Assembly (NCBI GenBank): GCA_900466605.1
Contig: UBMU01000003.1
Location: 124,001 to 188,000, forward strand
DNA from: Hyphomicrobiales bacterium
GTDB lineage: Bacteria; Pseudomonadota; Alphaproteobacteria; Rhizobiales; Rhizobiaceae
Direction: 5' to 3'
Length of the DNA stretch: 64,000 bases
The notes under the pieces: generated by a model
What the model saw: the letters and a program-made list of their open reading frames with translations, nothing else
Database searches by the model: none
What the model was told of the DNA's origin: nothing
Program-made: the position numbers and the translations under genes
In this document: piece after piece, positions 5,592-53,361 of the stretch
Position numbering within the stretch: the stretch's first letter is position 1
Layout: each line of letters starts with the position of its first letter

Positions 5592-5598
5592 CGCCGCC

Positions 5599-6699: not shown

Positions 6700-6721
6700 T
6701 CAGGGCCCCTTGTTTACCCGC

Positions 6722-9612: not shown

Positions 9613-9679
9613 CGAATGTACTTTTCTTTCTCAAGCCGCCGCGCCCCCTTGGCGAATCGGCTCCGACATTCATTCAGCC

Positions 9680-11422
9680 TTAATAAGACACCAACATGGC
9701 CGATCCGTCGTCACCGAACTTGGGTTCCACACCGAGAATTGGCGCTGCGCGGGCAATGATGTTCTTCACCATCGGGGCTGCAGTGTACGCAGCAATGTTC
9801 TGGCCCTTCTCACCATTGTGCGGCTCGTCGCAGAAAGTAAGCACGACGTATTTGGGATCATCGATCGGGAACGCCGCAAGGAACGCATTGAAATTGAGGT
9901 TTGTCGCATAGCGGCCGTTCACGACCTTGTCGGCCGTTCCGGTCTTTCCACCAACGTTGAAACCGGGCACATCTGCGTTGCGGCCCGAGCCTTTGATGCC
10001 GTTCAACTTGAAGAGATAGCGTACATCGTCGCTGGTGCTTTTCTTGACGACCGCTTCAGCGACTTCGTCTGCCTGCTCACGATTGCGCGGCAGGAACGTC
10101 GGCTCGATCAGCTTGCCGCCATTGACGAGCGCGGCGCCTGCAACCGCCGTCTGCAGCGGCGTGGTGGAAACACCATGGCCGAACGAAATCGTCACCGAGT
10201 TGATCTTCTTCCAGACCTTAGGCTGGCTCGGCATCTTCACCTCGGGAAGTTCGGTTTTCATCTTGGTCAAAAGGCCGAGCTTCGTGAGATAATCTTTCTG
10301 AGCGTCAATGCCGACGATGTCGATGATGCGGGCGGTACCGACGTTTGACGAGTACTGGAAGACCTCGGGCAGCGTCAGCCAACGGCGCTGACCGTGGAAG
10401 TCGTGAATGGTGAAACCGCCGATGCGGATCGGCTGTGTCGCATCGAAGCTATCGTTGAGGCTGACCTTGCCGGTGTCGAGCGCCATGGCGAGAGAGAAGG
10501 TCTTGAAGGTCGACCCCATCTCGAACGTGCCGTTCGACATGCGGTTGAGCCAGCCTTCCTTGGCACCTTCCAACGGGTTGTTAGGATCGAAATCCGGGGC
10601 CGATGCCATTCCAAGCACCTCACCCGTGTGAATATCGAGAATGACGGCGCCGGCGCCCTTTGCTTCGTAGTTTTTAACGGCGTTGACGACGACATCGCGT
10701 ACGATGTTCTGGACTCGGACGTCGATTGACAGGCGGACTGGCTCGAGTGGTTGGTCGCTTGTCATGCCGACTGAAGCAAGGTCGGCAAGTCCCTGATCGT
10801 CGATGTATTTTTCCATGCCGGCAACGCCGCGGTTGTCGATGTTGACGTAACCGAGAATATGCGCGGCAGTCGGACCACCCGGATAGAAGCGGCGCTTCTC
10901 AGGCCGGAAGCCGATGCCGGGAATGCCAAGCGCCAGGATCTGGCTCTGCTGCTTCGGTGTCAGCTGGCGTCGCAGCCAGGCAAAGTGGGATGTTCGATTC
11001 GCGAGCTTCTTGTAGGTCCCTTTCACGTCGAGGTCGGGCAGAACGGTGGCGAGCTTTTCCACGGCCTCATCCGTATCGACGACCTTGTTCGGTTCGGCAA
11101 AGAGCGAGACCGTACGGATGTCCGTTGCCATCACTTCGCCGTTGCGGTCCAGAATATCAGGGCGCGACGCCATCAGACGATCCGGCGGCAGGATGCTCGA
11201 TACCACTTCGGGATCGCGGATCGCGTATTCGACGAGACGCCCGCCGATCACGCAATAGACACCGATAAATCCAATGATCAACAGCCCAACCCGGCTCTTG
11301 GCCTGTCCCGTCCTCTTCTTTCGCGACCCTTCGATCGGCATGTTGCCGCCGAGCCGGTTATTCGTACCCGCGGAAAAATGCGCCTGGCTCTTCAATACCA
11401 TGATGCGTGAAAGAAAAGACAT
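9680..11422 (-). CDS. ftsI: Septal peptidoglycan D,D-transpeptidase FtsI (PBP3)
   Basis: FtsI cross-links septal peptidoglycan, working with FtsW. The 580-residue protein has a short basic cytoplasmic tail, one membrane anchor (GLLIIGFIGVYCVIGG, about residues 46-61), a PBP dimerisation domain, and a penicillin-binding domain with the three active-site motifs: STFK near residue 307, SSN near 360 and KTGT near 493. It begins 2 bp after the ftsL stop. Length and motifs match class B PBPs. Confidence 0.97.
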   Translation of the reverse strand: MSFLSRIMVLKSQAHFSAGTNNRLGGNMPIEGSRKKRTGQAKSRVGLLIIGFIGVYCVIGGRLVEYAIRDPEVVSSILPPDRLMASRPDILDRNGEVMATDIRTVSLFAEPNKVVDTDEAVEKLATVLPDLDVKGTYKKLANRTSHFAWLRRQLTPKQQSQILALGIPGIGFRPEKRRFYPGGPTAAHILGYVNIDNRGVAGMEKYIDDQGLADLASVGMTSDQPLEPVRLSIDVRVQNIVRDVVVNAVKNYEAKGAGAVILDIHTGEVLGMASAPDFDPNNPLEGAKEGWLNRMSNGTFEMGSTFKTFSLAMALDTGKVSLNDSFDATQPIRIGGFTIHDFHGQRRWLTLPEVFQYSSNVGTARIIDIVGIDAQKDYLTKLGLLTKMKTELPEVKMPSQPKVWKKINSVTISFGHGVSTTPLQTAVAGAALVNGGKLIEPTFLPRNREQADEVAEAVVKKSTSDDVRYLFKLNGIKGSGRNADVPGFNVGGKTGTADKVVNGRYATNLNFNAFLAAFPIDDPKYVVLTFCDEPHNGEKGQNIAAYTAAPMVKNIIARAAPILGVEPKFGDDGSAMLVSY

Positions 11423-11424
11423 CT

Positions 11425-11826
11425 CTACTCCACCGATCCGGTTGCCATCAGGTCTTCTTCCTCGGGTTGCGGCACCACTGCCTTCGGCTTCGCTTTAGCG
11501 CCGGCTTTAGCCTCGGTAATGTCGGGAACAGGAACCTGCGACTTCAGCATCGGCAACTCCCTGGCATGGACGAGAGAGGTGGACGGCGTCGGCTGCAGCT
11601 GGAGCTCGCCATTATAGTTGTTGACGAGGCGCTCGAGCCTGTTGGGCTGAGACAGCAGGGCCCAATCGGCCTTCAACAGATCGATCGTGTCCTTCTCGAG
11701 TTTGATCTCCGCCTCGAGGCGATGAACCTCCTCGAGCTTGAGTTCTGCGTGATGCTTGATTGTATAGGTTACGGCGGCAGCGGCCGTCATGACACCGACC
11801 AGGATGAGGTCCAAGGTTCTCAGCAT
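11425..11826 (-). CDS. ftsL: Cell division protein FtsL
   Basis: A 133-residue bitopic protein in the ftsL position between rsmH and ftsI. It has a membrane span (DLILVGVMTAAAAVTYTI, about residues 6-23) followed by a heptad-like stretch with HAELKLEEVHRLEAEIKLEK, consistent with the FtsL/FtsB coiled coil that links FtsQ to FtsWI. The C-terminal 40 residues are rich in Ala/Pro/Lys and look disordered. I chose the ATG at 11824-11826; an in-frame extension upstream would run into the rsmH coding region. Confidence 0.88.
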   Translation of the reverse strand: MLRTLDLILVGVMTAAAAVTYTIKHHAELKLEEVHRLEAEIKLEKDTIDLLKADWALLSQPNRLERLVNNYNGELQLQPTPSTSLVHARELPMLKSQVPVPDITEAKAGAKAKPKAVVPQPEEEDLMATGSVE

Positions 11827-11827
11827 A

Positions 11828-12853
11828 TCAGGCTCCGAGCTTTCCGAGACTTGCCAGATTCGGCAGCCCGAAGATGGAAACATCCGCCGCTTCGGCAGGC
11901 GCCGAAGTCCGCAGTCCGGCCCGCAGCTTCGCCGAGCGCGCCCGCGGGTTTTCCTGCGCCTCTGCCTCGGTCGCAGCAACCATCGGCTTGCCGATCCGCT
12001 CGAACGTGGCGGCACGCTCGTGCGCGACGGGCAGATGACGAGAGCCGGAAGCCTTGCCGGCACGGTCGGAGAAGAAGGTTTTGACGATCCTGTCTTCAAG
12101 GGAATGGAAGGTAACCACAACGAGACGCCCGCCAGGCTTCAGCGCGCGCTCGGCGGCAAACAGCGCCTGCGCCAGTTCACCGAGCTCATCATTGACGAAA
12201 ATCCTGAGCGCCTGAAACACGCGCGTCGCGGGATGAATCTTGTCCTTCATCTTGCGAGGCGTGACGAGTTCGATAAGGCCCGCCAGATCACGCGTCGTTT
12301 CGAACGGCTTCTCGGCACGCCGCCTTTCGATTGCGTGGGCGATGCGCGGCGACTGACTTTCCTCTCCGAGAAAATGGAAGATGCGAATTAGGTCCGCCAC
12401 CTTGGCACGATTGACGACATCGGCGGCAGAGACACCTGCAGCCGACATACGCATGTCGAGAGGACCATTCTTCTGAAAGGAGAAACCGCGATCTGCTTCA
12501 TCGATCTGCATCGACGACACACCGATATCGAGGACCACCCCATCCAGTCCATCGGGTGGAGCACACTCTGCCAAACGAGAAAACTGCGAATGAAAGAGCT
12601 TCAGACGACCTTGGCTGCTCGCAACAAGAGCCTGACCGACTTCGATAGCCGTCGGATCGCGATCCAGCGCAACCACGTCGGAACCGAAGTCCAAAATGGC
12701 AGAAGTATAGCCACCTGCCCCAAAGGTACCATCCAGAATGACTTTGCCGGGCAGCGGCTCAAGCGCAGCAAGAACCTCATTGAGAAGAACCGGAACGTGG
12801 CGAACCGGTCCGCCACCGGCATCAGTTGAATCTCCGCCAGGATTCGCCGCCAT
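11828..12853 (-). CDS. rsmH: 16S rRNA (cytosine-1402-N4)-methyltransferase RsmH (MraW)
   Basis: RsmH methylates N4 of C1402 in the ribosomal P site using SAM. The 341-residue protein begins MAANPGG, with [10 protein letters not shown] near residue 18, the SAM loop [15 protein letters not shown] near 39, [11 protein letters not shown] near 105, and [13 protein letters not shown] near 255, all typical of the family. The reading frame stays open upstream through mraZ, but the ATG at 12851-12853 is 17 bp after the mraZ stop and gives the normal length. It is the second gene of the dcw operon. Confidence 0.96.
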
Positions 12854-12870
12854 TCCGTTCCCTCGTATTA

Positions 12871-13308
12871 TTAGGAACGCCCGCCCGCCAGCCGACGCCC
12901 TCCTCGTGCCTGCATCTGAGCCGCCTGAAAGGCCTGCGGCTGCCACAGCTGAAAATGATCCGCCCGACCGACGAAGGCCACTTCGTCCGAGATGCCAGTG
13001 AAGTCGCGAATGAAATCCGTGACCATCAACCGACCTTCCGCATCGAGCTTCATGAAGATACCGCCTCCGTGGATGAGAAGCGACATCTCGTTCGCATCCG
13101 GCGAAAACGGATCCTCCGCAGCAATCTGGCGCTCGAACCTCTCCAGGAGATCCGGACCGCCGACGCTGATCGCCGGAAACACAAAGTCCTGAAAGCAATA
13201 AAGCTCCTGAACATTGCGCTGCGCCAGCACGGATCGAAAAACCGCCGGCACGGAAACCCTGCCCTTGGAATCGATTCTGTTGGTCGCGCTTGAAAGGAAG
13301 CGGCTCAT
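12871..13308 (-). CDS. mraZ: Division/cell-wall cluster transcriptional regulator MraZ
   Basis: MraZ is an AbrB-fold DNA-binding protein that heads the dcw operon and in other bacteria represses its own promoter. The 145-residue protein has the doubled fold, with [16 protein letters not shown] near residue 10 and [16 protein letters not shown] near 82. I place the start at 13308 (MSRFLSS), matching the usual family N-terminus; an ATG 12 bp upstream (13320) is also possible. The putative operator is at 13485-13520, about 175 bp upstream. Confidence 0.94.
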
Positions 13309-13889
13309 GACACGAAACATCCGTTCCCGAAAGAGCCCGGACAGAACTCAGGAGCCCGGAACCTCGAAATTCAGGCACAACTTCGCGAGCCGGACGGACA
13401 AAATTCCATCCGGCGCTTCCAAAAAGGAAGGCGCCTTGGCTTTGCGATTGGTGGGCACCTACTTGCCCTTGCGCAGTGCGTAAATGGGATAACATGGGAC
13501 CATATGGGCGTCAATGGGAAACGCCCGTCTCACGATGAGCGCAGTATCGAAAATTTATAAGCTGTTAAGTTTAACAAAGGGTTAGGATCGCCCTTTCGAG
13601 GAGGCGAGCAGCAAGGCATCCTGCACCCCCACAACGACAGTGGGCGCCTAAAACCAGCACAACCGAATAGGCGATTTCAAACAGCGCCTTAAGCACGGCC
13701 GGCTCACACGCAGGTCAGGGATTGCGGCACTTTGCATAAGAAGGCGTAGCTGCCGCTATCTAGTTCGAAGTAGGCAACCAACCCCTTCGGATATGGCCAT
13801 ATGCAAAATAATAAAGAGCCGGAGAATTGAATTAATTCGGCACCGCCGCATATTACGGAAGACTAAATAAGTAACCGTGGAGTAACACT
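13309..13889. other. Intergenic region: mraZ promoter and leader, then unassigned DNA
   Basis: No convincing gene in 581 bp. The left part holds the mraZ leader and the promoter/operator described separately. The right part is AT-richer than its surroundings and contains two perfect palindromes: ATATGGCCATAT at 13791-13802 and GAATTAATTC at 13829-13838, both upstream of the small gene at 13890. These could be regulator sites, but their role is unknown. Confidence 0.6.
13485..13520 (-). promoter_or_regulatory. mraZ promoter interleaved with four MraZ-type TGGG boxes
   Basis: Four TGGG copies start at 13485, 13495, 13505 and 13515, an exact 10 bp period matching the TGGGN-N5 arrays known to bind MraZ. 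On the minus strand a TTGACG -35 element (13509-13514) and a TATCCC -10 element (13486-13491) are separated by exactly 17 bp and lie inside the array. Bound MraZ would therefore cover the promoter, implying autorepression of the dcw operon. The boxes read TGGG on the strand opposite to transcription. Confidence 0.75.
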
Positions 13890-41534: not shown

Positions 41535-41570
41535 GAAAAAAGCCCGGAAAGCCTAGGCTTTCCGGGCCGT
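41535..41570 (-). terminator. Terminator after the iron-type alcohol dehydrogenase
   Basis: A perfect palindrome GCCCGGAAAGCCTAGGCTTTCCGGGC (41542-41567) is followed on the minus strand by six Ts. It ends the five-gene minus-strand cluster. Confidence 0.9.
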
Positions 41571-41595: not shown

Positions 41596-42747
41596 TCAGA
41601 AGCAATCTTTAAAGAGTGACTTAGTATTTTCGAGCGTCATCTTGACCGGATTGCCGCCCGCGCTTGGATCCTCGATCGCCATTGCCGAAAGTTCATCGAT
41701 TCGATCCGGCTTGATTCCCATCGCCGACAGGCTGTCGGGAACGCCAAGCTCGGCGCGAAGCTGCAGAACGTAATCATAAAAGCCGTCGAAGCCGCCGGAA
41801 ATGCCAAGATAGGCAGCAGCACGTGCGATCCTGTCCTCGATCACCGAGCGATTGAAGCGCAGCACAGCAGGCATCACCACGGCATTCGTCATGCCGTGGT
41901 GGGTGTTGTAGACCGCGCCGATCGGATGCGACAGCGCGTGAATGGCGCCGAGGCCCTTCTGGAAGGCAACCGCGCCCATAGCAGCCGCCGACATCATGTT
42001 GGCTCGGGCTTCGAGATCCGTGCCTTCCTTGTAAGCGCGCGGCAGGAACTCCTTGACCAGCCGCATGCCCTCAAGCGCAATGCCTGCCGACATCGGGTGA
42101 TAGAAGGGCGAGGAGTAGGCTTCCAGGCAGTGCGCGAAGGCATCCATGCCGGTGCCTGCAGTGATGATCTTCGGCATGCCGACCGTCAGCTCCGGATCGG
42201 CAATGACGACGCCGGGCAGGAACTTCGGATGGAAGATGATCTTCTTCACATGCGTTTCGGAATTGGTGATGACGCTGGCGCGGCCGACTTCCGAGCCCGT
42301 GCCTGCCGTCGTCGGCACGGCCACGATCGGCGCGATGCCCTCGACGCTCGCACGCGTCCACCAGTCGCCAATATCCTCGAAGTCCCAGACAGGTCGCGTC
42401 TGGCCGGCCATGAAGGCCACGCACTTGCCGAGATCGAGGCCCGAACCGCCGCCGAAGGCGACCACGCCATCGTGGCCGCCATCCTTGAATGCCTTGACAC
42501 CGGCGTCGAGGTTCTTCTCATTCGGGTTCGGATCGACATCGGCGAAGATCGCGCGACCGAGACCGGCATCTTCGAGAATATCGAGCGCGGTCTTGGTGAT
42601 CGCCATCGACGCGAGGCCGCGATCGGTGATCAGCAACGGCTTCTTGATGCCCAGGCTCTTGCAGGCGTCCGCCAGTTCCTTGATGCGGCCCCGGCCGAGC
42701 TTGAAGGCGGTCGGATAGCTCCAGTTGGCTATGATGTTGCTGCTCAT
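41596..42747 (-). CDS. Iron-containing alcohol dehydrogenase (group III)
   Basis: The 383-residue protein belongs to the iron-type ADH family: NAD loop FGGGSGLDLGK near residue 98, VPTTAGTGSEVG near 144, and metal ligands D202, H206, H270 or H274, and H283 or H284 (in AFAHCLEAY and GAIHALSHPIGAVYNTHHG). Substrate alcohols range from ethanol to 4-hydroxybutyrate. The ATG at 42747 overlaps the aldehyde dehydrogenase stop (ATGA), so the pair is coupled. In this cluster it would oxidise an alcohol group of a gamma-glutamylated substrate (inferred). Confidence 0.93.
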   Translation of the reverse strand: MSSNIIANWSYPTAFKLGRGRIKELADACKSLGIKKPLLITDRGLASMAITKTALDILEDAGLGRAIFADVDPNPNEKNLDAGVKAFKDGGHDGVVAFGGGSGLDLGKCVAFMAGQTRPVWDFEDIGDWWTRASVEGIAPIVAVPTTAGTGSEVGRASVITNSETHVKKIIFHPKFLPGVVIADPELTVGMPKIITAGTGMDAFAHCLEAYSSPFYHPMSAGIALEGMRLVKEFLPRAYKEGTDLEARANMMSAAAMGAVAFQKGLGAIHALSHPIGAVYNTHHGMTNAVVMPAVLRFNRSVIEDRIARAAAYLGISGGFDGFYDYVLQLRAELGVPDSLSAMGIKPDRIDELSAMAIEDPSAGGNPVKMTLENTKSLFKDCF

Positions 42748-44129
42748 GCTGTGACTTTCTTCAGATGGTAGGATTTCGGACGCGTGAGGTTCTGGAAGCC
42801 GATGATGGACAGCGAGCCGCCACGGCCCGTCTCCTTGACGCCGGTCCAGCACAGAGCCGGATCGAGATAGTCTGCGCGGTTCATGAACACGGTGCCGGTT
42901 TCGATCTCGCGACCAAGCCGCCCTGCCCGCTCCGCATCCTGCGTCCAGAGCGATGCCGTCAGGCCGTACTGGCTGTCGTTCATCAAGGCGATTGCCTCGT
43001 CGTCGCTCTTCACCTTCATGATGCCGACGGCAGGACCGAAGGTTTCTTCGCGCATGAAGGCCATCGAGTGATCGACGTTGACGAGGATCTGCGGAGCCAG
43101 ATAAGCGCCGCCATCATCCTGCGGGAACAGCTTCGGATCGACCAGCGCCTTGGCGCCCTTGGAGACCGCATCGGCGATCTGCTCGCGCACCACCTTGGCG
43201 AAGCGCTTGTTGGCCATCGGACCGAGCGATGTTTCCGGATCGAGCGGATTGCCGAGCTTGTAGTTCGACACCCAAGCGACCGACTTCTCGACGAAGCTGT
43301 CATAGAGCGATTCATGCACATAGATGCGCTCGATGCCGCAGCAGCACTGTCCAGAATTATAGGTCGCACCGTCCATCAGCGTATCGACGGCTGCGTCAAG
43401 ATCGGCATCTTCCATGACATAGCCCGGATCCTTGCCGCCAAGCTCGAGGCCGAGGCCAGTGAAGGTGCCGGCCGCCGCCCGCTCCATCGAGCGTCCACCT
43501 TCGACCGAGCCGGTGAAATTCACGAAGTTGAAGCTGCCCGCACCGATCAGCGCCGAGGTCGTCTCGTGATCGAGGAACACGTTCTGGAAAACATCCTCCG
43601 GAACGCCGGCCTCGACAAAAGCCTGAACCAGCCGCTCGCCGACCAGAAGGGTCTGCGAAGCATGCTTGAGAACAACCGTATTACCGGCCATCAGTGCCGG
43701 CGCGATCGTGTTGATCGCCGTCATGTAAGGATAGTTCCACGGCGCCACGACGAACACCACGCCATGCGCCTCGCGCTCGATGCGGCGCTCGAACTTGTTG
43801 CTCTCTTCCACGACCAGCGGCGCCAGCGCATCGGCGGCGATCGAGGCGACATAGTTGGAGCGCTCGTTGAAGCCCTTGTACTCACCGCCGTAGCGGATCG
43901 GCCGGCCCATCTGCCAGGCAAGCTCCGGCACGACGACATCGGACATCTCGTTCAACCGCGCGACGCCCTTCAGTACGAGCTGGACGCGATCTTCAAGCGG
44001 TCGCTTTGCCCATGCCTTCTGAGCCTTACGCGCGCGCGCCACGACTTCCTTCGCGGCGTCCAGCGACAGTGCCGGACGCTCGGCGTAGACCGATCCATCG
44101 ATCGGTGAAATGCATTGGATCATTCCCAT
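42744..44129 (-). CDS. NAD(P)-dependent aldehyde dehydrogenase
   Basis: The 461-residue protein has the ALDH residues: WNYP near 131, the glutamate E229 in LELGGKDP and the catalytic Cys263 in NSGQCCCGIERI. Its substrate class is not certain; relatives oxidise succinate semialdehyde, betaine aldehyde or gamma-glutamyl-aminoaldehydes. AGGAAGG precedes the ATG at 44129. It lies between the glutamine-synthetase-like ligase and the iron alcohol dehydrogenase and is coupled to the latter, which suggests successive oxidation from alcohol to acid. Confidence 0.92.
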   Translation of the reverse strand: MGMIQCISPIDGSVYAERPALSLDAAKEVVARARKAQKAWAKRPLEDRVQLVLKGVARLNEMSDVVVPELAWQMGRPIRYGGEYKGFNERSNYVASIAADALAPLVVEESNKFERRIEREAHGVVFVVAPWNYPYMTAINTIAPALMAGNTVVLKHASQTLLVGERLVQAFVEAGVPEDVFQNVFLDHETTSALIGAGSFNFVNFTGSVEGGRSMERAAAGTFTGLGLELGGKDPGYVMEDADLDAAVDTLMDGATYNSGQCCCGIERIYVHESLYDSFVEKSVAWVSNYKLGNPLDPETSLGPMANKRFAKVVREQIADAVSKGAKALVDPKLFPQDDGGAYLAPQILVNVDHSMAFMREETFGPAVGIMKVKSDDEAIALMNDSQYGLTASLWTQDAERAGRLGREIETGTVFMNRADYLDPALCWTGVKETGRGGSLSIIGFQNLTRPKSYHLKKVTA

Positions 44130-44235
44130 GATCACCTTCCTATGTTTTCGCGAGCCGAAGCCGGCCGCACCCTGTACAATCCCAGAAGATATGGAGATCG
44201 TATGACGGGATGCGTACCGCTCTTGGCTACGCCTA

Positions 44236-45603
44236 TTATGCTCTTTCGAAACCGCGCGCCACTTCCCAGTCGGTGATGCGACGATCGTACTCTTCCTGCT
44301 CCCATTCAGCAGCGCGGGTGTAGTGATCAATGACGTCGTCGCCGAAGGCCTTGCGCAGCATTTTTGACTTGGTCATCGTGGCTGTTGCCGCCCTTAGCGT
44401 CCGCGGAATTTCGCGAACGCGTCGTGCACCATAGGCGTCGCCGACGAACGGTGCTTCGAGCTCCATATTGTTCTCGATGCCATCGATGCCTGCGGCTAGT
44501 AGCGCCGCGAAAGCGAGATAAGGATTGAGGTCTGAACCGCCGACACGGCACTCGATGCGGATTGCCTTGGTGCCGTCACCGCACAGGCGATAGCCGGCGG
44601 TGCGGTTGTCCTTGCTCCAGATCGCCTTGGTCGGCGCGAATGTGCCGGCCATGAAGCGCTTGTAGGAATTGATGTAGGGCGCCAGGAAATAAGTGATCTC
44701 GCTCGCATGAGCGAGGAGACCGGCAATGTAGTTTTCCATCAGCGGCGACATGCCGTATTTGCCCTTGTCGTCGGCAAACAGCGGCGTCTTTCCGTCTGCG
44801 CTCCACAGCGACTGATGGATGTGGGACGAACTGCCGGCGGCGTTGTAATGCCACTTGGCGAGGAAGGTGATCGCCTTGCCCTTCGACCAGGCGATTTCCT
44901 TGCAGCCATTCTTGATAATCGCATGACGGTCCGCCATAGCAAGCGCATCGGCGTAGCGGACGTTGATTTCCTCCTGGCCCGCGGAGGCCTCGCCCTTGGA
45001 GTTTTCGACAGGAATGCCGGCTCCCTGAAGCCCGGTGCGGATCGCCCGCATCACCTCTTCTTCCTTGGTCGTCTGGAAGATGTGATAGTCCTCGTTGTAG
45101 GCGCTGGCGAGTTTCAGGTTCCGGTAGCCGGACGTGTGCGCGGATTCATAGGTCTGATCGAACAGGAAGAATTCAAGCTCCGACGCCATGAAGGCCTTCA
45201 TGCCCATGTCCTCGAGACGCTTGACCTGCTTCTTCAGGATGGCGCGCGGCGAATGCGGCACTTCTTCATGGGTGTGATGGTCGAGCAGGTCGCAGAGCAC
45301 CAGCGCCGTACCCTCTAGCCAGGGAATGCGGCGCAGCGTCGAAAGGTCCGGCTTCATGGTATAGTCGCCGTAGCCCTTTTCCCAACTCGTCGCCTTGTAG
45401 CCAGAGACAGTTTCCATCTCCATGTCGGTGGCAACGAGATAGTTGCAGCTATGCGTTTCCTTCCACGCGCTCTCGAGAAAGTATTCGGCCTGGAAGCGCT
45501 TGCCCATTAGTCGGCCCTGCATGTCCACCTGGCATGCGAGAACCGTATCGATGCGCTTGTCGGCTACATCCTGCTTCAGATCGTCAAGAGTATAGATGCT
45601 CAT
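44236..45603 (-). CDS. Glutamine-synthetase-like gamma-glutamyl amide ligase (PuuA type)
   Basis: The 455-residue protein has the glutamine synthetase fold and metal ligands (E142/E144 in ASELEFFLF, E205 and E212 region, H263 in GSSSHIHQSLW, E351/R353 in RIECRVGGSDLNPYLAFAALL). The residue aligned with the ammonia-binding Glu327 of GlnA is Phe322 (NSYKRFMAGTFAPT versus PGYEAP), and the Asp50-type loop is absent. That pattern fits a ligase joining glutamate to an amine, like PuuA or GlnA3/4-type enzymes, rather than true glutamine synthesis. It follows the permease gene by 148 bp. Confidence 0.88.
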   Translation of the reverse strand: MSIYTLDDLKQDVADKRIDTVLACQVDMQGRLMGKRFQAEYFLESAWKETHSCNYLVATDMEMETVSGYKATSWEKGYGDYTMKPDLSTLRRIPWLEGTALVLCDLLDHHTHEEVPHSPRAILKKQVKRLEDMGMKAFMASELEFFLFDQTYESAHTSGYRNLKLASAYNEDYHIFQTTKEEEVMRAIRTGLQGAGIPVENSKGEASAGQEEINVRYADALAMADRHAIIKNGCKEIAWSKGKAITFLAKWHYNAAGSSSHIHQSLWSADGKTPLFADDKGKYGMSPLMENYIAGLLAHASEITYFLAPYINSYKRFMAGTFAPTKAIWSKDNRTAGYRLCGDGTKAIRIECRVGGSDLNPYLAFAALLAAGIDGIENNMELEAPFVGDAYGARRVREIPRTLRAATATMTKSKMLRKAFGDDVIDHYTRAAEWEQEEYDRRITDWEVARGFERA

Positions 45604-45751
45604 ATTGATTCCGCCTGAACCTTGAACTGAAAAAATCGGGGCAACGAAAGAGCATGCCGTGAAACGGGCTAACCGCTTCTGATGCGTTTTCGTTGAGCCG
45701 TGGAACGGGGCCGCCATAGCGGCCCCGCAGTCATAGAGGGAAGTCGAAACC

Positions 45752-47299
45752 TCAAGCTTCGCCGACAGCCTTTTCGGCAGCAGCAATCTCCGCCTGACGG
45801 CGCGCGACCTCTTCGCCGATCGGCGGGCCCTTGAAGCGGCGGCTTTCGAAGCCGAACCACACGATAGCCGTCAGCACCAGGAAGCCCACCGTGATGTAAA
45901 GCGCCCACTCGTTCGGCGGCTGAACGCCGAGAACGAAGATGAGGATCATCGCCAGGATCGTCAGAACGGAGAAGAGCTTGTACATGCCCTCCCCGATATT
46001 CCACGGGCCCATCTTGTCCCACTTCGACGTACCCCAGGCGAAGAGACCGAGCGTGATCGGGATCGCGAAGGAGAAGAACAGGAAGATGACCGTGCACGAG
46101 ACGACGATCGTGTACACCGGCGTATCGCCGATCGAGACAAGCGACGAACCCCAGACGAACAGAACCGAGAGGATCGAACCCGTCCAGATCGCAGAGACCG
46201 GCGTGCGGTACTTCGGGCTGACCTTGGCCAATGCCTTAGATGCCGGCAGACCGCCGTCACGCGAGAAGGCGAAGATCATGCGCGAAACCGAGGTGACGGT
46301 TGCCAGACCGCACAGCCACTGGCTGACGAGGATCGCGAAGTAGAGCAGATCCTTGACGACCGGGTTGACCTGGCTGTCCATCGCCCAGAAGAACACATTC
46401 CAGCCCTGCTTGGCGGCATCGTCCATGCTTGGCAGCATTAGAACGAACGAGCAAAGCATGATGTAGCCGAAAAGCGCCGACCACAGCACGGACGAAACCA
46501 TACCGCGCGGCACGGAATGAGCAGCCTTGACCGTTTCTTCCGACGTATGCGCAGAGGCGTCGTAGCCGGTGATCGTGTAGATCGGCAGCAGCAGACCGAG
46601 CAGGAATACCCAGGTGCCAGAGGTTGCCGGCCAGACGTTGCCGCCCGCTTCGCCGGAATAGTTGGCGAATGTGAAGAGGCGCGCAAAATCATAGGACGGA
46701 GCGGCGAGCAAGCAGACCGCCGCCAGGACGATAGCGGTGGCGAAGATCAGATAGCCGGAAAAGTCGGTGAGCTTCGCAGTCAGTCCGATCCCCATGTGGT
46801 TCACGAGCGCCTGCGCGCCAGTGATGATCACCAGGAAGACGATACGGACCGTCGTGGTGTCCGTCAGGCCGAAATAGGTCGTGCCGAAGGAGCCCATGAA
46901 GAAGTAGTAAGTACCGACGTTGATGGCGCCGAGAACGGTGACGAGGCCGAGCAGGTTGAACCAGGCGGTCAGCCAGCCGGTAAATCGGTTGCCAAGGATT
47001 GAACCCCAGTGGTAGAGGCCGCCGGCCGTCGGATAAGCGGAGCTGATCTGCGCCATGGCGACGGCGAACACCAGCGAAACGAAGCAGCCGACCGGCCAAC
47101 CGATGCCGATGGCCGCGCCGCCGGCACCGGCGGTCGCCTGTGCCAGCGAGTTAATGCCGCCGGAAAGAATGCAAATGATGGAAAACGAGACAGCAAAATT
47201 CGAGAACGAGCTCATGCGTCGTTCCAGCTCCTGGGCATAGCCCATGGAGTGCAGGATGTGGACATCCTGCTTCTTGTCGAGTTCCGAGTAATCGGACAT
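45752..47299 (-). CDS. APC-family amino acid/amine permease
   Basis: The 515-residue membrane protein has about twelve spans and the APC family look, with SYAQELERRMSSFSNFAVSFSIICILSGGI near the start and YPTAGGLYHWGSILGNRFTGWL near residue 92, as in GABA, putrescine and choline/ethanolamine-type permeases. GGGGGAAG precedes the ATG. Lying between the N-formylglutamate amidohydrolase-like gene and the ligase gene, it probably brings in the amine that the ligase then captures. Confidence 0.9.
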   Translation of the reverse strand: MSDYSELDKKQDVHILHSMGYAQELERRMSSFSNFAVSFSIICILSGGINSLAQATAGAGGAAIGIGWPVGCFVSLVFAVAMAQISSAYPTAGGLYHWGSILGNRFTGWLTAWFNLLGLVTVLGAINVGTYYFFMGSFGTTYFGLTDTTTVRIVFLVIITGAQALVNHMGIGLTAKLTDFSGYLIFATAIVLAAVCLLAAPSYDFARLFTFANYSGEAGGNVWPATSGTWVFLLGLLLPIYTITGYDASAHTSEETVKAAHSVPRGMVSSVLWSALFGYIMLCSFVLMLPSMDDAAKQGWNVFFWAMDSQVNPVVKDLLYFAILVSQWLCGLATVTSVSRMIFAFSRDGGLPASKALAKVSPKYRTPVSAIWTGSILSVLFVWGSSLVSIGDTPVYTIVVSCTVIFLFFSFAIPITLGLFAWGTSKWDKMGPWNIGEGMYKLFSVLTILAMILIFVLGVQPPNEWALYITVGFLVLTAIVWFGFESRRFKGPPIGEEVARRQAEIAAAEKAVGEA

Positions 47300-47425
47300 G
47301 ACTTCCCCCTGTTTAGCGATCGACCGCGGAATTGCGGATGATCATCCAGTGCCAAAGTGCCCGCGACGTTTTCGCCTGCGGGCGGATCGCAGTTAAACTG
47401 CTCCCTGGGGTCTTATCTTTTGTCG

Positions 47426-48199
47426 TCAGGCGTCCAGGCTCCGCTGGAGCAGCCTCGTCAGATAGTCGGCCATGACCCCTTGGCCGGCTTGGTCTGAGAT
47501 GAGGTCGTTGCGGACCTCGATCATTACATTGCGGAGCCCGTTCGAAAGACCGTGCAGGACCAGCGTGTGTGTCACGCCATCTGCCGGGCCGTAGGGCTCG
47601 TTGCGTTCGATTTTATAAAGAGGCGAGCCGGTCGATGCGGCGTTCAGGACGCTGTCGGCGAAGCGGCTATCTTCGTCATGCAATATGCCGATTTCCACGG
47701 CGCGCGTCTTGCCGTGGTAAACAGGAGTGAAGCTGTGGACCGTTGCAATCACCGTCTCCTGCCCCCTCGCCTTGCGTTCGCGAATCAGTGCGCGAATGGC
47801 GTCGTGGAAGGGAATATACAACGCTTCGGTGCGCGCGACGCGTTCTTCCGCGCTGAGATGGGCGTTGCCTGGTATTTCGTAGACTTCGCTTTTCTCCGGC
47901 ATGGCGCCCGGCGCCTCTGGCGGCCTGTTGCAATCGTATATCAATCGCGAATATCGCTGAAAGACGAGAGTGGCATCGAGCGCTTCCGAAATCCCACGCG
48001 CAACAGCCAAAGCGCCCGGATCCCACGCGATATGGCTCTTTAACGCCTCATCGGAGAGCCCGAGTGTCCCGTACCGCTCAGGAAGCAGTCGGGACGCATG
48101 CTCGCAGATCACCAGCATCGGGCTCTTGCCATTCGGCCGCTCGACCGAAACGCACTCGCCTTCCGCTTCGCTTAGGACCTTGGATTGAGCAGGCACCAC
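47426..48199 (-). CDS. N-formylglutamate amidohydrolase-family protein
   Basis: The roughly 257-residue protein has the family markers CEHASRLLP near residue 31, HIAWDPGALAVA near 56, RYSRLIYDCNR near 80, and the C-terminal NVMIEVRNDLI. The family removes formyl or acyl groups from the amide nitrogen of glutamate; here it could release glutamate from a gamma-glutamyl product (inferred). The start is uncertain: I use the GTG at 48199, but a TTG at 48256 and a second GTG at 48196 are in frame. It is the first gene of the minus-strand cluster and divergent from the RpiR regulator. Confidence 0.8.
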   Translation of the reverse strand: MVPAQSKVLSEAEGECVSVERPNGKSPMLVICEHASRLLPERYGTLGLSDEALKSHIAWDPGALAVARGISEALDATLVFQRYSRLIYDCNRPPEAPGAMPEKSEVYEIPGNAHLSAEERVARTEALYIPFHDAIRALIRERKARGQETVIATVHSFTPVYHGKTRAVEIGILHDEDSRFADSVLNAASTGSPLYKIERNEPYGPADGVTHTLVLHGLSNGLRNVMIEVRNDLISDQAGQGVMADYLTRLLQRSLDA

Positions 48200-48375
48200 A
48201 GCCGCATTCCGATCATTAATAAAGAATGTATAAGAAAAGAATTCTTCAGGTTCCAACGACTGTCAAGCGCACTCTGAAAATTTCTTTTCATGACAACAGT
48301 TGACATGGATTGTGACAGCGTTGTTAACTTTGAGTGGGAAAGTGGCACAAGACCAATCCCGGGGAGCAAGATCGC
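48200..48375. promoter_or_regulatory. Divergent promoter region between amidohydrolase cluster and RpiR gene
   Basis: About 175 bp with AT-rich DNA. On the plus strand TTGACA (48300-48305) is followed 18 bp later by TTAACT (48324-48329), a reasonable sigma-70 promoter for the RpiR gene. Repeated GTTGAC/GTTAAC-like motifs (CAACAGTTGACA, GTTGTTAAC) might be regulator half-sites. Not proven. Confidence 0.45.
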
Positions 48376-49248
48376 GTGACCGCTGCGTCGAAGACAGTTT
48401 CGGACGTAATCCATTCGCATTTTGGCATGCTTACGCGAGCCGAAAAGCAATTGGCCGAGAGCCTGCTGGACAACTACCCGGTCTCCGGACTGGGGAGCAT
48501 CACGACGATTGCCGAGAACGCTGGTGTATCGACACCCACGGTCGTTCGCATGGTGCAGAAGCTGGGCTTCAAGGGCTATCCGGACTTTCAGGCACATCTC
48601 CACCAAGAGTTGGAAGCGACGATTTCAAACCCGATCGCCAAGCATGACCGATGGGCATCCAACGCTCCTGGCACGCATATTCTGAACCGCTTTGCCGATG
48701 CGATCATGGGCAACCTGCGCCAGACGCTCAGCGGGCTCGATACGGCGACGTTCGACAGTGTCGCCTCGCTGCTATCCGACCGCAAGCGCGGCCTCTATTT
48801 TGTCGGCGGACGCATTACCGGCGCGCTGGCCGAATACTTCTTTACGCATATGCAGGTCATTCGCCCGAGCACTGCGCTGCTCTCATCGAATTCGAGCAGC
48901 TGGCCACAGTACGTGCTCAATATGAATCCAGGCGACTTGCTGGTGATATTTGATATCCGCCGCTACGAGCAGGAAATGGTCAGCCTGGCGACAGCCGCCC
49001 GGAAGAGAGGCGCCGAGATCGTCGTTTTCACCGATCAATGGGGATCGCCAGCCGCCAAGCTCGCGCGCCATACCTTTCGTGTGCAGATCGAGGCGCCGTC
49101 AGCCTGGGACTCTTCCGTCGTTACTCTCTTCATCGTTGAAGCGCTGATCGAAGCCGTTCAGAGCTCGACATGGGACGAGACGAAAGAACGTATGAAAACC
49201 CTGGAGGGCCTGTTCGAACAAACCAGACTCTTCCGCAAACTCGGTTAG
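48376..49248 (+). CDS. RpiR/MurR-family transcriptional regulator
   Basis: The 290-residue protein has an N-terminal HTH of the RpiR type (SITTIAENAGVSTPTVVRMVQKLGF, around residues 40-64) and a C-terminal SIS domain (residues about 125-270, with FVGGRITGALAEYF and ARKRGAEIVVFTDQ), which binds phosphosugars or related ligands. GGGGAG lies 11 bp before the GTG at 48376; a GTG at 48334 is less likely. It lies between two oppositely transcribed units and could control either or both. Confidence 0.86.
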   Translation: MTAASKTVSDVIHSHFGMLTRAEKQLAESLLDNYPVSGLGSITTIAENAGVSTPTVVRMVQKLGFKGYPDFQAHLHQELEATISNPIAKHDRWASNAPGTHILNRFADAIMGNLRQTLSGLDTATFDSVASLLSDRKRGLYFVGGRITGALAEYFFTHMQVIRPSTALLSSNSSSWPQYVLNMNPGDLLVIFDIRRYEQEMVSLATAARKRGAEIVVFTDQWGSPAAKLARHTFRVQIEAPSAWDSSVVTLFIVEALIEAVQSSTWDETKERMKTLEGLFEQTRLFRKLG

Positions 49249-49430: not shown

Positions 49431-50534
49431 GTGATCTCTAATATTTCGAAAATGCTTTCGCTTTCTACTGCAATCGTTGTTGCCTCGACTGCAATTGCGG
49501 CTGCGGAACCTAGCGCTGAACTTATCGCTGCCGCCAAGAAGGAAGGCACGCTGACGACCATCGCCCTTCCGCACGACTGGTGCGGCTACGGCGACGTCAT
49601 TGCCGGCTTCAAGGCCAAATACGGCATCGACGTCAACGAACTGAACCCGGACGCAGGCTCGGGCGATGAAATCGAAGCCATCAAGGCCAACAAGGGCAAC
49701 ACCGGCCCGCAGGCTCCTGACGTCATCGACGTCGGCCTCTCCTTCGGCCCGTCTGCCAAGGCCGATGGCCTGATCCAACCTTACAAGGTCTCGACCTGGG
49801 ACTCGATCCCTGACAGCGCCAAGGATGCCGACGGCTACTGGTACGGCGACTACTACGGCGTTCTCTCCTTCGTCGTGAACACGGACATCGTCAAGGACGT
49901 CCCGAAGGACTGGGCTGACCTGAAGAAGTCGGACTACGCGAACAGCATCGCCCTCGCCGGTGACCCGCGCGCCTCGAACCAGGCTGTCCAGGCTGTTTAC
50001 GCCGCCGGCATCGCAGCTGGTGAAAAGGATGCGACCAAGGCTGGTGAAGCTGGCCTCGCCTACTTCGCCGAGCTCAACAAGGCTGGCAATCTCGTTCCTG
50101 TCATCGGCAAGTCCGCTTCGCTGGCACAGGGCTCCACCCCGATCGTCATCGCCTGGGACTACAACGGTCTCTCCTGGCGCGACACGCTGAAGGGCAACCC
50201 GCCGGTTGAAGTCGTCGTTCCGGCATCGGGCGTCAACGCTGGCGTCTACGTCCAGGCGATCTCCGCTTTCGCTCCGCATCCGAACGCTGCAAAGCTCTGG
50301 ATGGAATACCTCTATTCGGACGAAGGTCAGCTCGGCTGGCTGAAGGGTTATTGCCACCCGATCCGCTTCAACGACCTGGCGGCGAACAAGAAGATCCCGC
50401 AGGAACTTCTCGACAAGCTGCCGCCGGCAGCTGCCTATGAAAAGGCCGTGTTCCCGACCCTCGACGAGCAGGCCGCCGGCAAGGCTGCCATCACCACCAA
50501 GTGGGACAGCGTCGTCGGCGCCAACGTCAAGTAA
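49431..50534 (+). CDS. ABC transporter periplasmic substrate-binding protein (PotD/Fbp-like)
   Basis: The 367-residue protein has a signal peptide (cleavage near AAA-EPS, residue 25) and a family 1/6-type two-lobe fold with KKEGTLTTIALPHDW and PDVIDVGLSFGPSAKADGL. Relatives bind polyamines, iron or small organic cations; the ligand is unknown. Codon use is strongly biased to C-ending codons, suggesting high expression. GAAGGAGA precedes a GTG start. The first of a plus-strand importer operon with two permeases and an ATPase. Confidence 0.87.
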   Translation: MISNISKMLSLSTAIVVASTAIAAAEPSAELIAAAKKEGTLTTIALPHDWCGYGDVIAGFKAKYGIDVNELNPDAGSGDEIEAIKANKGNTGPQAPDVIDVGLSFGPSAKADGLIQPYKVSTWDSIPDSAKDADGYWYGDYYGVLSFVVNTDIVKDVPKDWADLKKSDYANSIALAGDPRASNQAVQAVYAAGIAAGEKDATKAGEAGLAYFAELNKAGNLVPVIGKSASLAQGSTPIVIAWDYNGLSWRDTLKGNPPVEVVVPASGVNAGVYVQAISAFAPHPNAAKLWMEYLYSDEGQLGWLKGYCHPIRFNDLAANKKIPQELLDKLPPAAAYEKAVFPTLDEQAAGKAAITTKWDSVVGANVK

Positions 50535-50546
50535 TCTCTGACGCAG

Positions 50547-50583
50547 GACCTCTCCGTCCCCGCGGCGGGGAGGTCTCATTTTC
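50547..50583 (+). terminator. Attenuating hairpin between binding-protein and permease genes
   Basis: ACCTCTCC...GGGGAGGT (about 50548-50574) forms a GC-rich hairpin with one G-U pair, followed by CATTTTCATT. Located 12 bp after the binding-protein stop, it likely stabilises the upstream mRNA or limits read-through so that more binding protein than permease is made. Confidence 0.6.
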
Positions 50584-50606
50584 ATTGCCCGGTAAGGCTG
50601 TCGTCT

Positions 50607-51500
50607 ATGAGCACTGTTTCAACATCCGTGGCCAGCACCACGCCCCTGATAAACCGCGACAGGGTCATAGACTGGCTCGGCATCGCGCCGTTCATGATTT
50701 TCGCCGCGATGTTCCTGATCATACCGACGCTTTATCTCGTCGCAGGTGCGTTCCTGACGCCGGAAGGCGAACTGACACTCAAGAACATCGCCGACCTGTT
50801 CACGCCCTCGATTCTCAGCGCCTACTGGATCAGTATCAAGGTATCGGTGGCCTCGGCCCTCGGTGGCGCGCTGATCGGCTTCTTTCTCGCCTGGGCAGTC
50901 GTGCTCGGCGGCCTCCCGAACTGGGTCCGGTCCGGCCTTCTCACATTTTCCGGCGTTGCCTCAAATTTTGCGGGCGTACCGCTCGCCTTTGCCTTCCTCG
51001 CCACGCTCGGACGCACCGGTCTGGTGACCGTTTTGATGCGCGACTGGTTCGGCTTCAATCTCTATTCCACCGGCTTCAACCTTCTCAGCTTTTTCGGGTT
51101 GACCCTTACCTACATGTACTTCCAGATCCCGTTGATGGTGCTGATCCTCACTCCTGCACTGGACGGTATGAAAAAGGAATGGAAGGAGGCCGCATCCATT
51201 CTCGGTGCTACCAACGGCCAATACTGGCGCATGGTTGCCTTCCCTATCCTCTGGCCGAGCCTGATGGGCACCACGCTGCTTCTCTTCGCAAACGCCTTCG
51301 GCGCAATCGCCACTGCCTACGCCTTGACTGGTAGTTCGCTGAACATCGTGCCGATCCTCCTCTACGCCCAGATCCGCGGCGACGTGCTGCACAACGCCAA
51401 TCTCGGCTACGCGCTGGCGCTCGGCATGATCGTCATCACCGGCCTATCCAACCTCGTCTACATCCTGCTGCGCATGCGCGCCGAACGGTGGCAAAAATGA
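50607..51500 (+). CDS. ABC transporter permease, first subunit
   Basis: The 297-residue protein has six predicted spans and the inner-membrane permease EAA loop (KEWKEAASILGATNGQYWRMVAFP near residue 190) that contacts the ATPase. It matches the PotB-like permeases of family 1/6 importers. It overlaps the second permease by ATGA at 51497-51500, so translation is coupled. Confidence 0.88.
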   Translation: MSTVSTSVASTTPLINRDRVIDWLGIAPFMIFAAMFLIIPTLYLVAGAFLTPEGELTLKNIADLFTPSILSAYWISIKVSVASALGGALIGFFLAWAVVLGGLPNWVRSGLLTFSGVASNFAGVPLAFAFLATLGRTGLVTVLMRDWFGFNLYSTGFNLLSFFGLTLTYMYFQIPLMVLILTPALDGMKKEWKEAASILGATNGQYWRMVAFPILWPSLMGTTLLLFANAFGAIATAYALTGSSLNIVPILLYAQIRGDVLHNANLGYALALGMIVITGLSNLVYILLRMRAERWQK

Positions 51501-52285
51501 AGACCTCACGCCTTGGAGCCTGGATCGCCATCGCAATCGGCGCGACATACTTCGTCCTGCCGCTCATCGCCACCATCGAATTCTCGCTGCGCATGCGCCG
51601 CGGCGCCTACAGTTTCGACGCCTATGCCTCGGTTTTCTCCGAGGCGCAGTTCCGCGAAACCTTCGGCTATTCGATGCTGATGGCGCTGCTGACCATCGTC
51701 TTCGGCATGCTTCTCGTGGTGCCGACCGCCTATTGGGTTCGCCTGCGCCTGCCGCAGATCCGCCCGATCGTCGAGTTCATCACGCTGCTGCCGCTAGTCA
51801 TCCCGGCAATCGTGATCGTCTTCGGCTACCTCAGAATGTACAACTCGTCCTCGATGCTGCCGCTGACGGGCTCGACGACGGGTACCAACGTGCTGCTCGT
51901 CCTCTCCTACATCACGCTGTCGTTGCCCTACATGTACCGCGCCGTTGACACGGCAATGCGCGCGATCGACGTCCGCACGCTGACCGAGGCCGCAGAAAGC
52001 CTCGGCGCAAGCTGGATGACCATCATGTTCAAATGCATCTTCCCGAACGTCATGAGCGGTGTTCTCTCTGGCGCCTTCATCACGCTTGCGATCGTCATGG
52101 GCGAATTCACCATGGCTGCACTCCTTAATCGTCCGGCCTTCGGCCCCTATCTGCAGCTGGTCGGCGCCAACCGCGCCTACGAGCCGTCGGCCTTGGCCGT
52201 CATCGCCTTCTCGATCACCTGGCTCAGCATGGGCCTGCTGCAACTCGTCTCCCGCTTCCACAAAGCCGCTCCGGCTAAGTCGTAA
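51497..52285 (+). CDS. ABC transporter permease, second subunit
   Basis: The 262-residue protein has six predicted spans and an EAA motif (TLTEAAESLGASWMTIMFKCIFPN near residue 155). It resembles PotC-like permeases. I chose the ATG at 51497, overlapping the stop of the first permease; a GTG 9 bp upstream is in frame but less likely. The ATPase gene follows 14 bp later. Confidence 0.88.
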   Translation: MKTSRLGAWIAIAIGATYFVLPLIATIEFSLRMRRGAYSFDAYASVFSEAQFRETFGYSMLMALLTIVFGMLLVVPTAYWVRLRLPQIRPIVEFITLLPLVIPAIVIVFGYLRMYNSSSMLPLTGSTTGTNVLLVLSYITLSLPYMYRAVDTAMRAIDVRTLTEAAESLGASWMTIMFKCIFPNVMSGVLSGAFITLAIVMGEFTMAALLNRPAFGPYLQLVGANRAYEPSALAVIAFSITWLSMGLLQLVSRFHKAAPAKS

Positions 52286-52299
52286 GGTATCTGGTTTTC

Positions 52300-53361
52300 A
52301 TGGCCTTTCTCGAACTCGCAAACCTCAAGAAATCCTTCGGCGCCACGCAGGTCGTGCATGACTTCAACATGCAGATCGAGAAGGGTGAATTCATCTCTTT
52401 CCTCGGTCCCTCGGGCTGCGGCAAGACGACTGTCCTGCGCATGATCGCAGGCTTCGAAACGCCCTCTGCCGGACGCATTGCCATCGGCGGCAAGGAGCAG
52501 AACAATCTGAAGCCCAACAAGCGAAATATCGGCATGGTTTTCCAGGCCTATGCGCTGTTTCCCAACATGACGGTTCACGACAACGTCGCCTTCGGCTTGA
52601 AGGTCGCAGGCACACAGCCAGCCGAGATCGATGCTCGCGTCAAGGAAATGCTCGGGCTGATCAAGCTCGATCACCTTGCCGACCGCTATCCCTATCAGCT
52701 CTCCGGCGGCCAGCAGCAGCGCGTGGCGCTTGCCCGCGCCCTGGCGGTGCGCCCGCAGGTCCTGCTGCTCGATGAGCCGCTGTCAGCTCTCGACGCCAAG
52801 ATCCGCGTCTCGTTGCGCGAGGAAATCCGTGCCATCCAGCAGAAGCTTGGGATCACCACCGTCTTCGTGACGCACGATCAGGAAGAAGCGCTCTCGATCT
52901 CCGACCGCATTGTCGTCATGAATGCCGGCCGCGCCGACCAGATCGGCACGCCATTCGAAATCTACAATACGCCGGCAACACGCTTCGTCGCGTCCTTCGT
53001 CGGCACGCTCAACATGATCGAGGCCAAGGTCGTCGATCCGGCCGCCAATCGTATCCAGATAGGCGATCAGGGCATAACGCTGAAGCAGTCAGTCGCCGCG
53101 TTCAAGGCGGGCGATACGGTCTCACTGGCATTGCGTCCCGAAGCCGGATCTCTGGCCGAGGAAACACCGAGCGATACGAAGCTGACAGGAGTGGTCGTAT
53201 CCGCCCACTTCCTCGGTTCCGTCATCCGCACGCGCATGAATGTCGGCGGCAATGTCATTTCCTTCGACATGTTCAACAGCCCGGGTGTGACGCCACCGGC
53301 GGCCGGCGAAACCGTCACGCTCCGCTTCATGGCCGCCGACCTCCTCGTCATTCGCGATTGA
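52300..53361 (+). CDS. ABC transporter ATP-binding protein (PotA/FbpC-like)
   Basis: The 353-residue ATPase has Walker A GPSGCGKTT near residue 36, signature LSGGQQQRVALARAL near 133, Walker B LLLDEPLSALDAK and a C-terminal TOBE-like regulatory domain (from about residue 245). It powers the importer encoded just upstream (14 bp spacing). The MFS gene follows after 145 bp. Confidence 0.92.
   Translation: MAFLELANLKKSFGATQVVHDFNMQIEKGEFISFLGPSGCGKTTVLRMIAGFETPSAGRIAIGGKEQNNLKPNKRNIGMVFQAYALFPNMTVHDNVAFGLKVAGTQPAEIDARVKEMLGLIKLDHLADRYPYQLSGGQQQRVALARALAVRPQVLLLDEPLSALDAKIRVSLREEIRAIQQKLGITTVFVTHDQEEALSISDRIVVMNAGRADQIGTPFEIYNTPATRFVASFVGTLNMIEAKVVDPAANRIQIGDQGITLKQSVAAFKAGDTVSLALRPEAGSLAEETPSDTKLTGVVVSAHFLGSVIRTRMNVGGNVISFDMFNSPGVTPPAAGETVTLRFMAADLLVIRD

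Follow-up and report, generated by a model that had tools for sequence, protein, structure and literature searches.

Which nutrient is degraded by a gene cluster that encodes a glutamine-synthetase-like ligase together with a permease, two dehydrogenases and a protein resembling N-formylglutamate amidohydrolase? The question is raised by five consecutive minus-strand genes at 41596–48199 of a 64,000-nucleotide stretch, here called the window, from the 6.6 Mb draft genome of a Hyphomicrobiales bacterium of the Rhizobiaceae (assembly GCA_900466605.1, contig UBMU01000003.1, positions 124,001 to 188,000). An earlier note, made from the letters of the window alone, described these five genes, and the positions of the open reading frames (ORFs) and the Pfam matches agree with its description. 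The closest named loci, among the matches listed, belong to Rhizobium spp. and Rhizobiales isolates, with ligase identities of 95–98%. On the basis of sequence comparisons we hold with high confidence that the operon serves the use of ethanolamine as nitrogen and carbon source via gamma-glutamylation, and it is very probably a Rhizobium member of a gamma-glutamyl ethanolamine route that has already been described.

The operon and the proposed pathway

The genes stand in the order amidohydrolase, permease, ligase, aldehyde dehydrogenase (ALDH) and iron-containing alcohol dehydrogenase (Fe-ADH), and all five proteins score far above the cut-offs of their Pfam families (PF05013, PF13520, PF00120, PF00171 and PF00465, respectively). 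The first gene (47426–48199) encodes a protein of the formylglutamate-amidohydrolase (FGase) family, a probable gamma-glutamylglycine amidohydrolase (GGAH) with 148 bits on PF05013; it has a GTG start at 48199, and the part analysed here comprises 245 residues from 48163 on. It is followed by an APC-superfamily permease of TIGR00907-like type (45752–47299), which is a probable ethanolamine importer, and by the ligase (44236–45603), a probable gamma-glutamylethanolamide synthetase. The two dehydrogenases, both at conserved positions, are the ALDH (42744–44129; 400 bits on PF00171), which probably acts on the gamma-glutamyl aldehyde, and the Fe-ADH (41596–42747; PF25137 in addition to PF00465), a probable gamma-glutamylethanolamide dehydrogenase. 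A regulator of the RpiR/MurR family, with HTH_6 (PF01418) and SIS (PF01380) domains, is encoded divergently on the plus strand (48334–49248).

The reactions of all these enzymes, and control by the RpiR protein, are assigned from published homologues. In the proposed mechanism, the permease would import ethanolamine, which the ligase would join to glutamate with ATP to form gamma-glutamylethanolamide. The Fe-ADH would convert this amide to the aldehyde, the ALDH would convert the aldehyde to gamma-glutamylglycine, and the FGase-family enzyme would release glutamate and glycine, so that glutamate would be recycled and no free toxic aldehyde would arise. Import, gamma-glutamylation, two oxidations and hydrolysis had been laid out in the same way by the earlier note, and the families and their order match; the route itself has already been published.

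Correspondence with described systems

The published systems are compared here from the available parts of the papers cited. In Streptomyces coelicolor, a mutant and enzyme work identify GlnA4 as a gamma-glutamylethanolamide synthetase, and for the later steps two dehydrogenases and an enzyme of the formylglutamate-amidohydrolase family have been proposed, which would yield glycine and glutamate (PMC6529630). SCO1611–1615 of this organism and the window have the same first product, gamma-glutamylethanolamide, but the regulator is another one, and the figure legend gives a short-chain dehydrogenase for the window's Fe-ADH; the legend describes orf5 as a glutamine amidotransferase, whereas the text assigns it to the formylglutamate-amidohydrolase family (PMC6529630). 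In Chromohalobacter salexigens the four enzyme families are those of the window (PF00120, PF00465, PF00171 and PF05013) and the steps are called proposed (PMC9397018); the route in C. salexigens and in Agrobacterium tumefaciens C58 is called demonstrated elsewhere (PMC10132767). In Phaeobacter sp. MED193 (MED193_10021–10056) the order of RpiR, amidohydrolase, transporter, ligase, ALDH and alcohol dehydrogenase step is the same as in the window, the steps assigned are likewise the same, and the operon proteins increase when phosphorylethanolamine supplies the phosphorus (PMC10132767). Phaeobacter differs in having a TRAP transporter, EtoVWX, where the window has the APC permease, and the available text describes no ATP-binding cassette (ABC) importer such as the one beside the window operon (PMC10132767). 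This comparison was made by published order; the sequence comparison was made with Ruegeria sp. B32, which has the same gene order with a TRAP transporter in place of the permease.

The degradation of isopropylamine via alaninol had been taken by the earlier note as the closest published logic. The ethanolamine route is closer, in its families and in the Phaeobacter order, and the alaninol comparison was set aside since the published ethanolamine pathway fits enzyme by enzyme. The role of the amidohydrolase as a gamma-glutamyl hydrolase, which was expected to be new, has likewise already been proposed in print (PMC10132767, PMC6529630, PMC9397018), and in Phaeobacter the FGase-like protein has been named gamma-glutamylglycine amidohydrolase (PMC10132767); as far as the available text of these papers goes, the step is based on family, gene context and proteomics rather than on an assay. 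No study treating the operon as an ethanolamine pathway in Rhizobium was found, most subscription papers lying beyond the search.

Identity of the ligase and the amidohydrolase

The ligase lies under the cut-off of every glutamine-synthetase-type model that it matched (four of four), with 262 bits against 429 for TIGR00653 (GlnA), 240 against 470 for type III, 198 against 650 for gamma-glutamylputrescine synthetase (NF045547) and 141 against 845 for PRK09469. It agrees with the GlnA-like protein of the same genome (L162) in the acidic residues, histidines and arginines at the sites for metal, ATP and glutamate; we take the metal, nucleotide, glutamate and ammonia roles of these residues to be those of the Salmonella glutamine synthetase. 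The Asp-Gly-Ser-Ser stretch near the N-terminus of L162 is absent from the ligase, and Phe322 of the ligase aligns with the ammonia-handling flap glutamate of L162, as the earlier note had correctly read. Phe322 is invariant in 32 of 32 aligned sequences, the window included, down to 49% identity (Arthrobacter).

The fold searches, with 50 matches listed each, placed the ligase nearest to 5dm3, titled Csal_0679 of C. salexigens (60% identity, E 2e-191, Z 49.7, root-mean-square deviation 1.6, 367 residues). Csal_0679 adjoins in numbering Csal_0678, a homologue of the ethanolamine-binding EtoX. Also among the nearest solved structures listed is 11zs (60% identity, Z 47.6), a Brucella melitensis protein titled glutamine synthetase; Phe occupies its ammonia-site position, and by sequence it is probably an ethanolamine-type ligase. 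A second ligase-like paralogue, at 41–44% identity, was seen in six genomes of the order (G061:C19, G120:C10, G098:C2, G144:C254, G114:C400 and G038:C347), perhaps for another amine.

The amidohydrolase reaches 22 bits on the model of the HutG N-formylglutamate deformylase (TIGR02017), well under its cut-off of 278.75, and a separate HutG elsewhere in the genome passes the same model with 346 bits. At E 0.001 the amidohydrolase has a single relative of known structure, Atu2144 of A. tumefaciens (2odf), with 59% identity. The following residues (245-residue numbering) are invariant when the window protein is aligned with 16 orthologues and four paralogues: H22, H44, R73, D77, N79, R80, P98, H143, N188 and E216.

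Conservation of the gene group

Conservation was followed in 120 loci, of which 80 are named Rhizobiaceae loci (the best 80 of at least 592 confirmed) and 40 come from elsewhere in the order; the latter were taken down the score list from 72 ligase-positive order genomes, omitting most matches near contig ends, and 32 of these genomes were not covered. Genes were detected by tblastn at E 1e-10 or stricter, at which absences among distant loci carry little weight. The same genes were found elsewhere, as the earlier note had asked one to look for: of the 80 named loci, 78 carry the genes for amidohydrolase, ligase, ALDH and ADH together on a single strand, as do 29 of the 40 order loci, and therefore the grouping is not due to chance. 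In the two named loci without the full set (L088 and L095), a contig end truncates the group. Where the enzyme set is complete, an RpiR match accompanies it in all 78 named loci and in 26 of the 29 order loci, lying downstream in some of the latter (L117, L157 and L160).

The ligase is present in 72 of 150 order genomes (E 1e-100), in 41 of 61 family genomes and in 31 of 299 phylum genomes (both E 1e-120). The arrangement of the window also occurs in the annotated plasmids pSK03 of Rhizobium leguminosarum and pSymB of Sinorhizobium meliloti Ak57. An amidohydrolase matching Atu2144 at E 1e-110, with 88% identity, was found in one of 247 family genomes, and its locus repeats the window layout (RpiR, amidohydrolase, an Eat permease, ligase, ALDH, ADH) as well as its flanks, with the ABC cassette and the MFS, ParA and L,D-transpeptidase genes.

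Two plasmid loci depart from this arrangement. On pAA03 of Aminobacter aminovorans (L172:1771–18366), a plasmid typed as conjugative, the operon has no transporter gene between amidohydrolase and ligase and is flanked by an LLM monooxygenase/flavin reductase set and by the beta-hydroxyaspartate genes bhcRABCD, an arrangement that perhaps serves the degradation of an ethanolamine-containing compound. On a plasmid of Arthrobacter sp. U41 (L173:7959–12260), a protein of the gamma-glutamyl-GABA-hydrolase family stands at the place of the window's FGase, and a dehydrogenase resembling 3-oxoacyl-ACP reductase stands where the window has the Fe-ADH.

Exchange of transporters near the ligase

Within 6 kb of the ligase, and usually between its gene and that of the amidohydrolase, 76 of the 120 loci encode a permease of the window type, 27 a TRAP transporter with EtoX and four an Eat permease; these loci are related, so that 76 and 27 are not numbers of independent events. 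No locus holds two of the three kinds. The EtoX of one locus (L113) shares 70% identity with Csal_0678 (4uab/4xf5; Z 39), and the four Eat proteins score 359–374 bits on TIGR00908, a little below the cut-off of 381.75 but no less than 220 bits ahead of the next model. Enzymes of the same families are accompanied by EtoX in C. salexigens, by Eat in the locus with the 88% Atu2144 relative and by the TIGR00907-like permease in the window. Since EtoX, Eat and the permease of the window type replace one another near the ligase, we infer that ethanolamine is their common cargo. We found no report of this permease type standing in for Eat or EtoX, in a search that left most subscription papers out of reach.

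Avoidance of ethanolamine ammonia-lyase

The ligase also tends to be absent where the ammonia-lyase EutB is present. Among the 150 genomes of the order, 72 have the ligase and 34 have EutB (one of these matches, in G089, being a fragment of 32 positions), and only four have both, against about 16 expected (Fisher one-sided, p 7e-7). Counted by genus in the same sample, the ligase occurs in 49 and EutB in 21 of 89, with both in six (p 0.005), and in the 61 family genomes the numbers are 41, 13 and two (p 2e-5); except for the genus count, the p values take no account of relatedness among the genomes. The simplest reading of this avoidance is that two routes to one nutrient mostly replace each other.

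Weighing of the readings

We favour ethanolamine as the substrate because of the exchange of transporters and the avoidance of EutB, both of which are direct observations. Several findings weigh against this reading or narrow what it can claim. The window permease is neither Eat nor EtoX: TIGR00908, the Eat model, is not among its matches at E 0.001, and its best model, TIGR00907, gives 199 bits against a cut-off of 598. None of the three transporters was found in 13 of the 120 loci, and the full enzyme set is absent from 11 of the 40 order loci. Phe322 is not specific to the pathway, because a paralogue in the same genome (L164, 33% identical) likewise has Phe there, another (L163) having Ser; by sequence comparison, Phe at the ammonia position alone is no marker of this pathway. 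The gaps between genes of more than 100 bases may hold internal promoters. The avoidance of EutB is not strict either, because the window's own genome holds a divergent EutB–EutC fusion of 781 residues (L161:7675–10020, contig C37), an ordinary EutB occurs beside the ligase in G058, G064 and G095 of the order sample, and G485 of the family sample has the ligase, an ordinary EutB and a fusion-like EutB. The fusion-like match of G485 lies in an 802-residue frame. By eye, the N-terminus of the window genome's fusion resembles a twin-arginine signal; the NCBIfam Tat model gave no match to it at E 0.001, and export of such an ammonia-lyase fusion would be unusual.

The rival that survives best, although we consider it unlikely, retains the chemistry and changes the substrate to another amino alcohol, such as alaninol (2-amino-1-propanol), which would give gamma-glutamylalanine, or to several. 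The sequences would seem to raise no bar to a methyl group, the genome already has the EutB–EutC fusion for ethanolamine, and the window permease belongs to another model than Eat. Against this, the presence of EtoX or Eat in relatives, the published proteome response and the avoidance of EutB point to ethanolamine. The Ipu pathway of isopropylamine and alaninol also proceeds by a glutamylated amino alcohol, a likeness by description only. Of the two substrates suggested by the earlier note, ethanolamine is retained on the transporter exchange, the avoidance of EutB and the Phaeobacter proteome, and alaninol is less favoured.

Gamma-glutamylation of a polyamine of the putrescine type is very improbable. 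The Puu putrescine pathway of Escherichia coli resembles the proposed route in that gamma-glutamyl protection precedes oxidation and glutamate is released at the end, and the ligase does match the gamma-glutamylputrescine synthetase model; its score is far under the cut-off of that model, however, and the operon lacks an amine oxidase but encodes an alcohol dehydrogenase. The Puu pathway differs in its amine oxidase, in another hydrolase family and in its diamine substrate. Finally, the public annotation (glutamine synthetase family protein and N-formylglutamate amidohydrolase) would fit ordinary glutamine synthesis and histidine degradation genes adjoining by accident, to which we give next to no credence in view of Phe at the GlnA ammonia site, the low scores on TIGR00653 and on the HutG model, the model-passing HutG elsewhere and the conserved grouping; like the Puu-like reading, it was rejected on model scores and residues.

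Regulation and transcript boundaries

The gamma-glutamyl ethanolamine operon is probably under the control of the RpiR protein. Two candidate RpiR operator palindromes (48234–48290, minus strand), 42 bases apart from start to start, follow the pattern TGAARANNNNTTTTC, which has just these two matches in 64 kb, both between RpiR and amidohydrolase, where 0.09 are expected; the pattern was derived from this very promoter, which makes its uniqueness partly a matter of design. Of the 80 named loci, 68 contain the pattern, often at a single site, and so do two of the 40 other order loci, L141 in the promoter and L153 elsewhere.

The Fe-ADH and ALDH genes overlap by four bases, and the remaining intergenic gaps measure 126 (FGase/permease), 148 (permease/ligase) and 106 bases (ligase/ALDH). 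A hairpin resembling an intrinsic terminator follows the ADH gene (41541–41568, minus strand), with a 12-pair stem, eight G-C pairs and a T tail; in the whole region such sites are no commoner than in shuffled sequences (seven against a mean of 7.3). A sigma-70 scan gave no match.

The neighbouring ABC cassette

Beyond the RpiR gene, an ABC importer cassette is encoded on the plus strand (49431–53361), comprising a substrate-binding protein (SBP; 49431–50534), two permeases (50607–51500 and 51488–52285) and an ATPase (52300–53361). The SBP matches SBP_bac_6 and is a PhnS/Fe3+-type protein. Aminoethylphosphonate SBP models give it 28–68 bits against cut-offs of 310–395, among them PRK15046 (68 against 310) and PhnS (64 against 395), and the cassette as an aminoethylphosphonate importer was set aside on these scores.

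The SBP gene lies at most 8 kb from the ligase in 20 of the 23 Rhizobiaceae genomes that have both, the two being on different contigs in the remaining three, and the cassette takes one of two layouts, divergent as in the window or downstream on the operon strand. The link is positional only, because the presence of the SBP and that of the ligase are unassociated in the 61 family genomes (p 0.59). An ethanolamine route of any kind is found in 31 of 32 genomes with the SBP and in 21 of 29 others (p 0.008, and 0.11 when four genomes of less than 3 Mb are left out). In the 20 ligase-free genomes, EutB occurs in eight of nine with the SBP and in three of 11 without (p 0.009, and 0.08 without small genomes), so that the association of the SBP with ethanolamine routes is only suggestive.

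In one ligase-free genome with EutB (L178), the cassette faces Eat, and the two are bordered by ParA and L,D-transpeptidase genes resembling the window's (5138–13847), a place from which the gamma-glutamyl pathway genes are absent. In another (L177), some 6 kb separate the cassette from eat and eutC, next to which is EutB. Around the other seven ligase-free SBP loci, over about 9 kb on each side, no ethanolamine gene was recognised, among ORFs that were not scanned with models except for two of L174. A shared operator would have tied the cassette to the operon; against it speak the absence of TGAARANNNNTTTTC upstream of the window's SBP gene and the finding that the 25 commonest exact palindromes of each of the two intergenic regions include no conserved one in common.

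Because the cassette is near the ligase in 20 of 23 genomes and near eat or eut genes in L177 and L178, these positions suggest that it imports ethanolamine or a derivative, with statistics that are weak without the small genomes and an operator that is not shared. More tentatively, and with somewhat less than even confidence, rhizobial ethanolamine catabolism may have two importers, the TIGR00907-like permease and the PhnS-like cassette, the latter for ethanolamine or for one of its esters, such as phospho- or glycerophosphoethanolamine, and kept with either the gamma-glutamyl or the EutBC route. No report of a PhnS-like ABC importer beside the ligase came to light, most subscription papers again being beyond the search. 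Judging by the locus tags, the SMc01605 set of Sinorhizobium is presumably the counterpart of the window's ABC cassette, and SMc01594 that of the ligase. The available S. meliloti literature lists SMc01605 as a putative Fe3+ transporter and SMc01594 as a putative glutamine synthetase.

Significance for the rhizobia

The pathway is very probably a known one, with the permease as a probable and the ABC cassette as a possible importer. The assignment proposed here would correct the public annotations as glutamine synthetase and N-formylglutamate amidohydrolase in many rhizobia, and the exchange of transporters, taken together with the avoidance of EutB, amounts to a test of the substrate that is independent of annotation. 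It links the use of ethanolamine by rhizobia to a route that does without the B12-dependent lyase.

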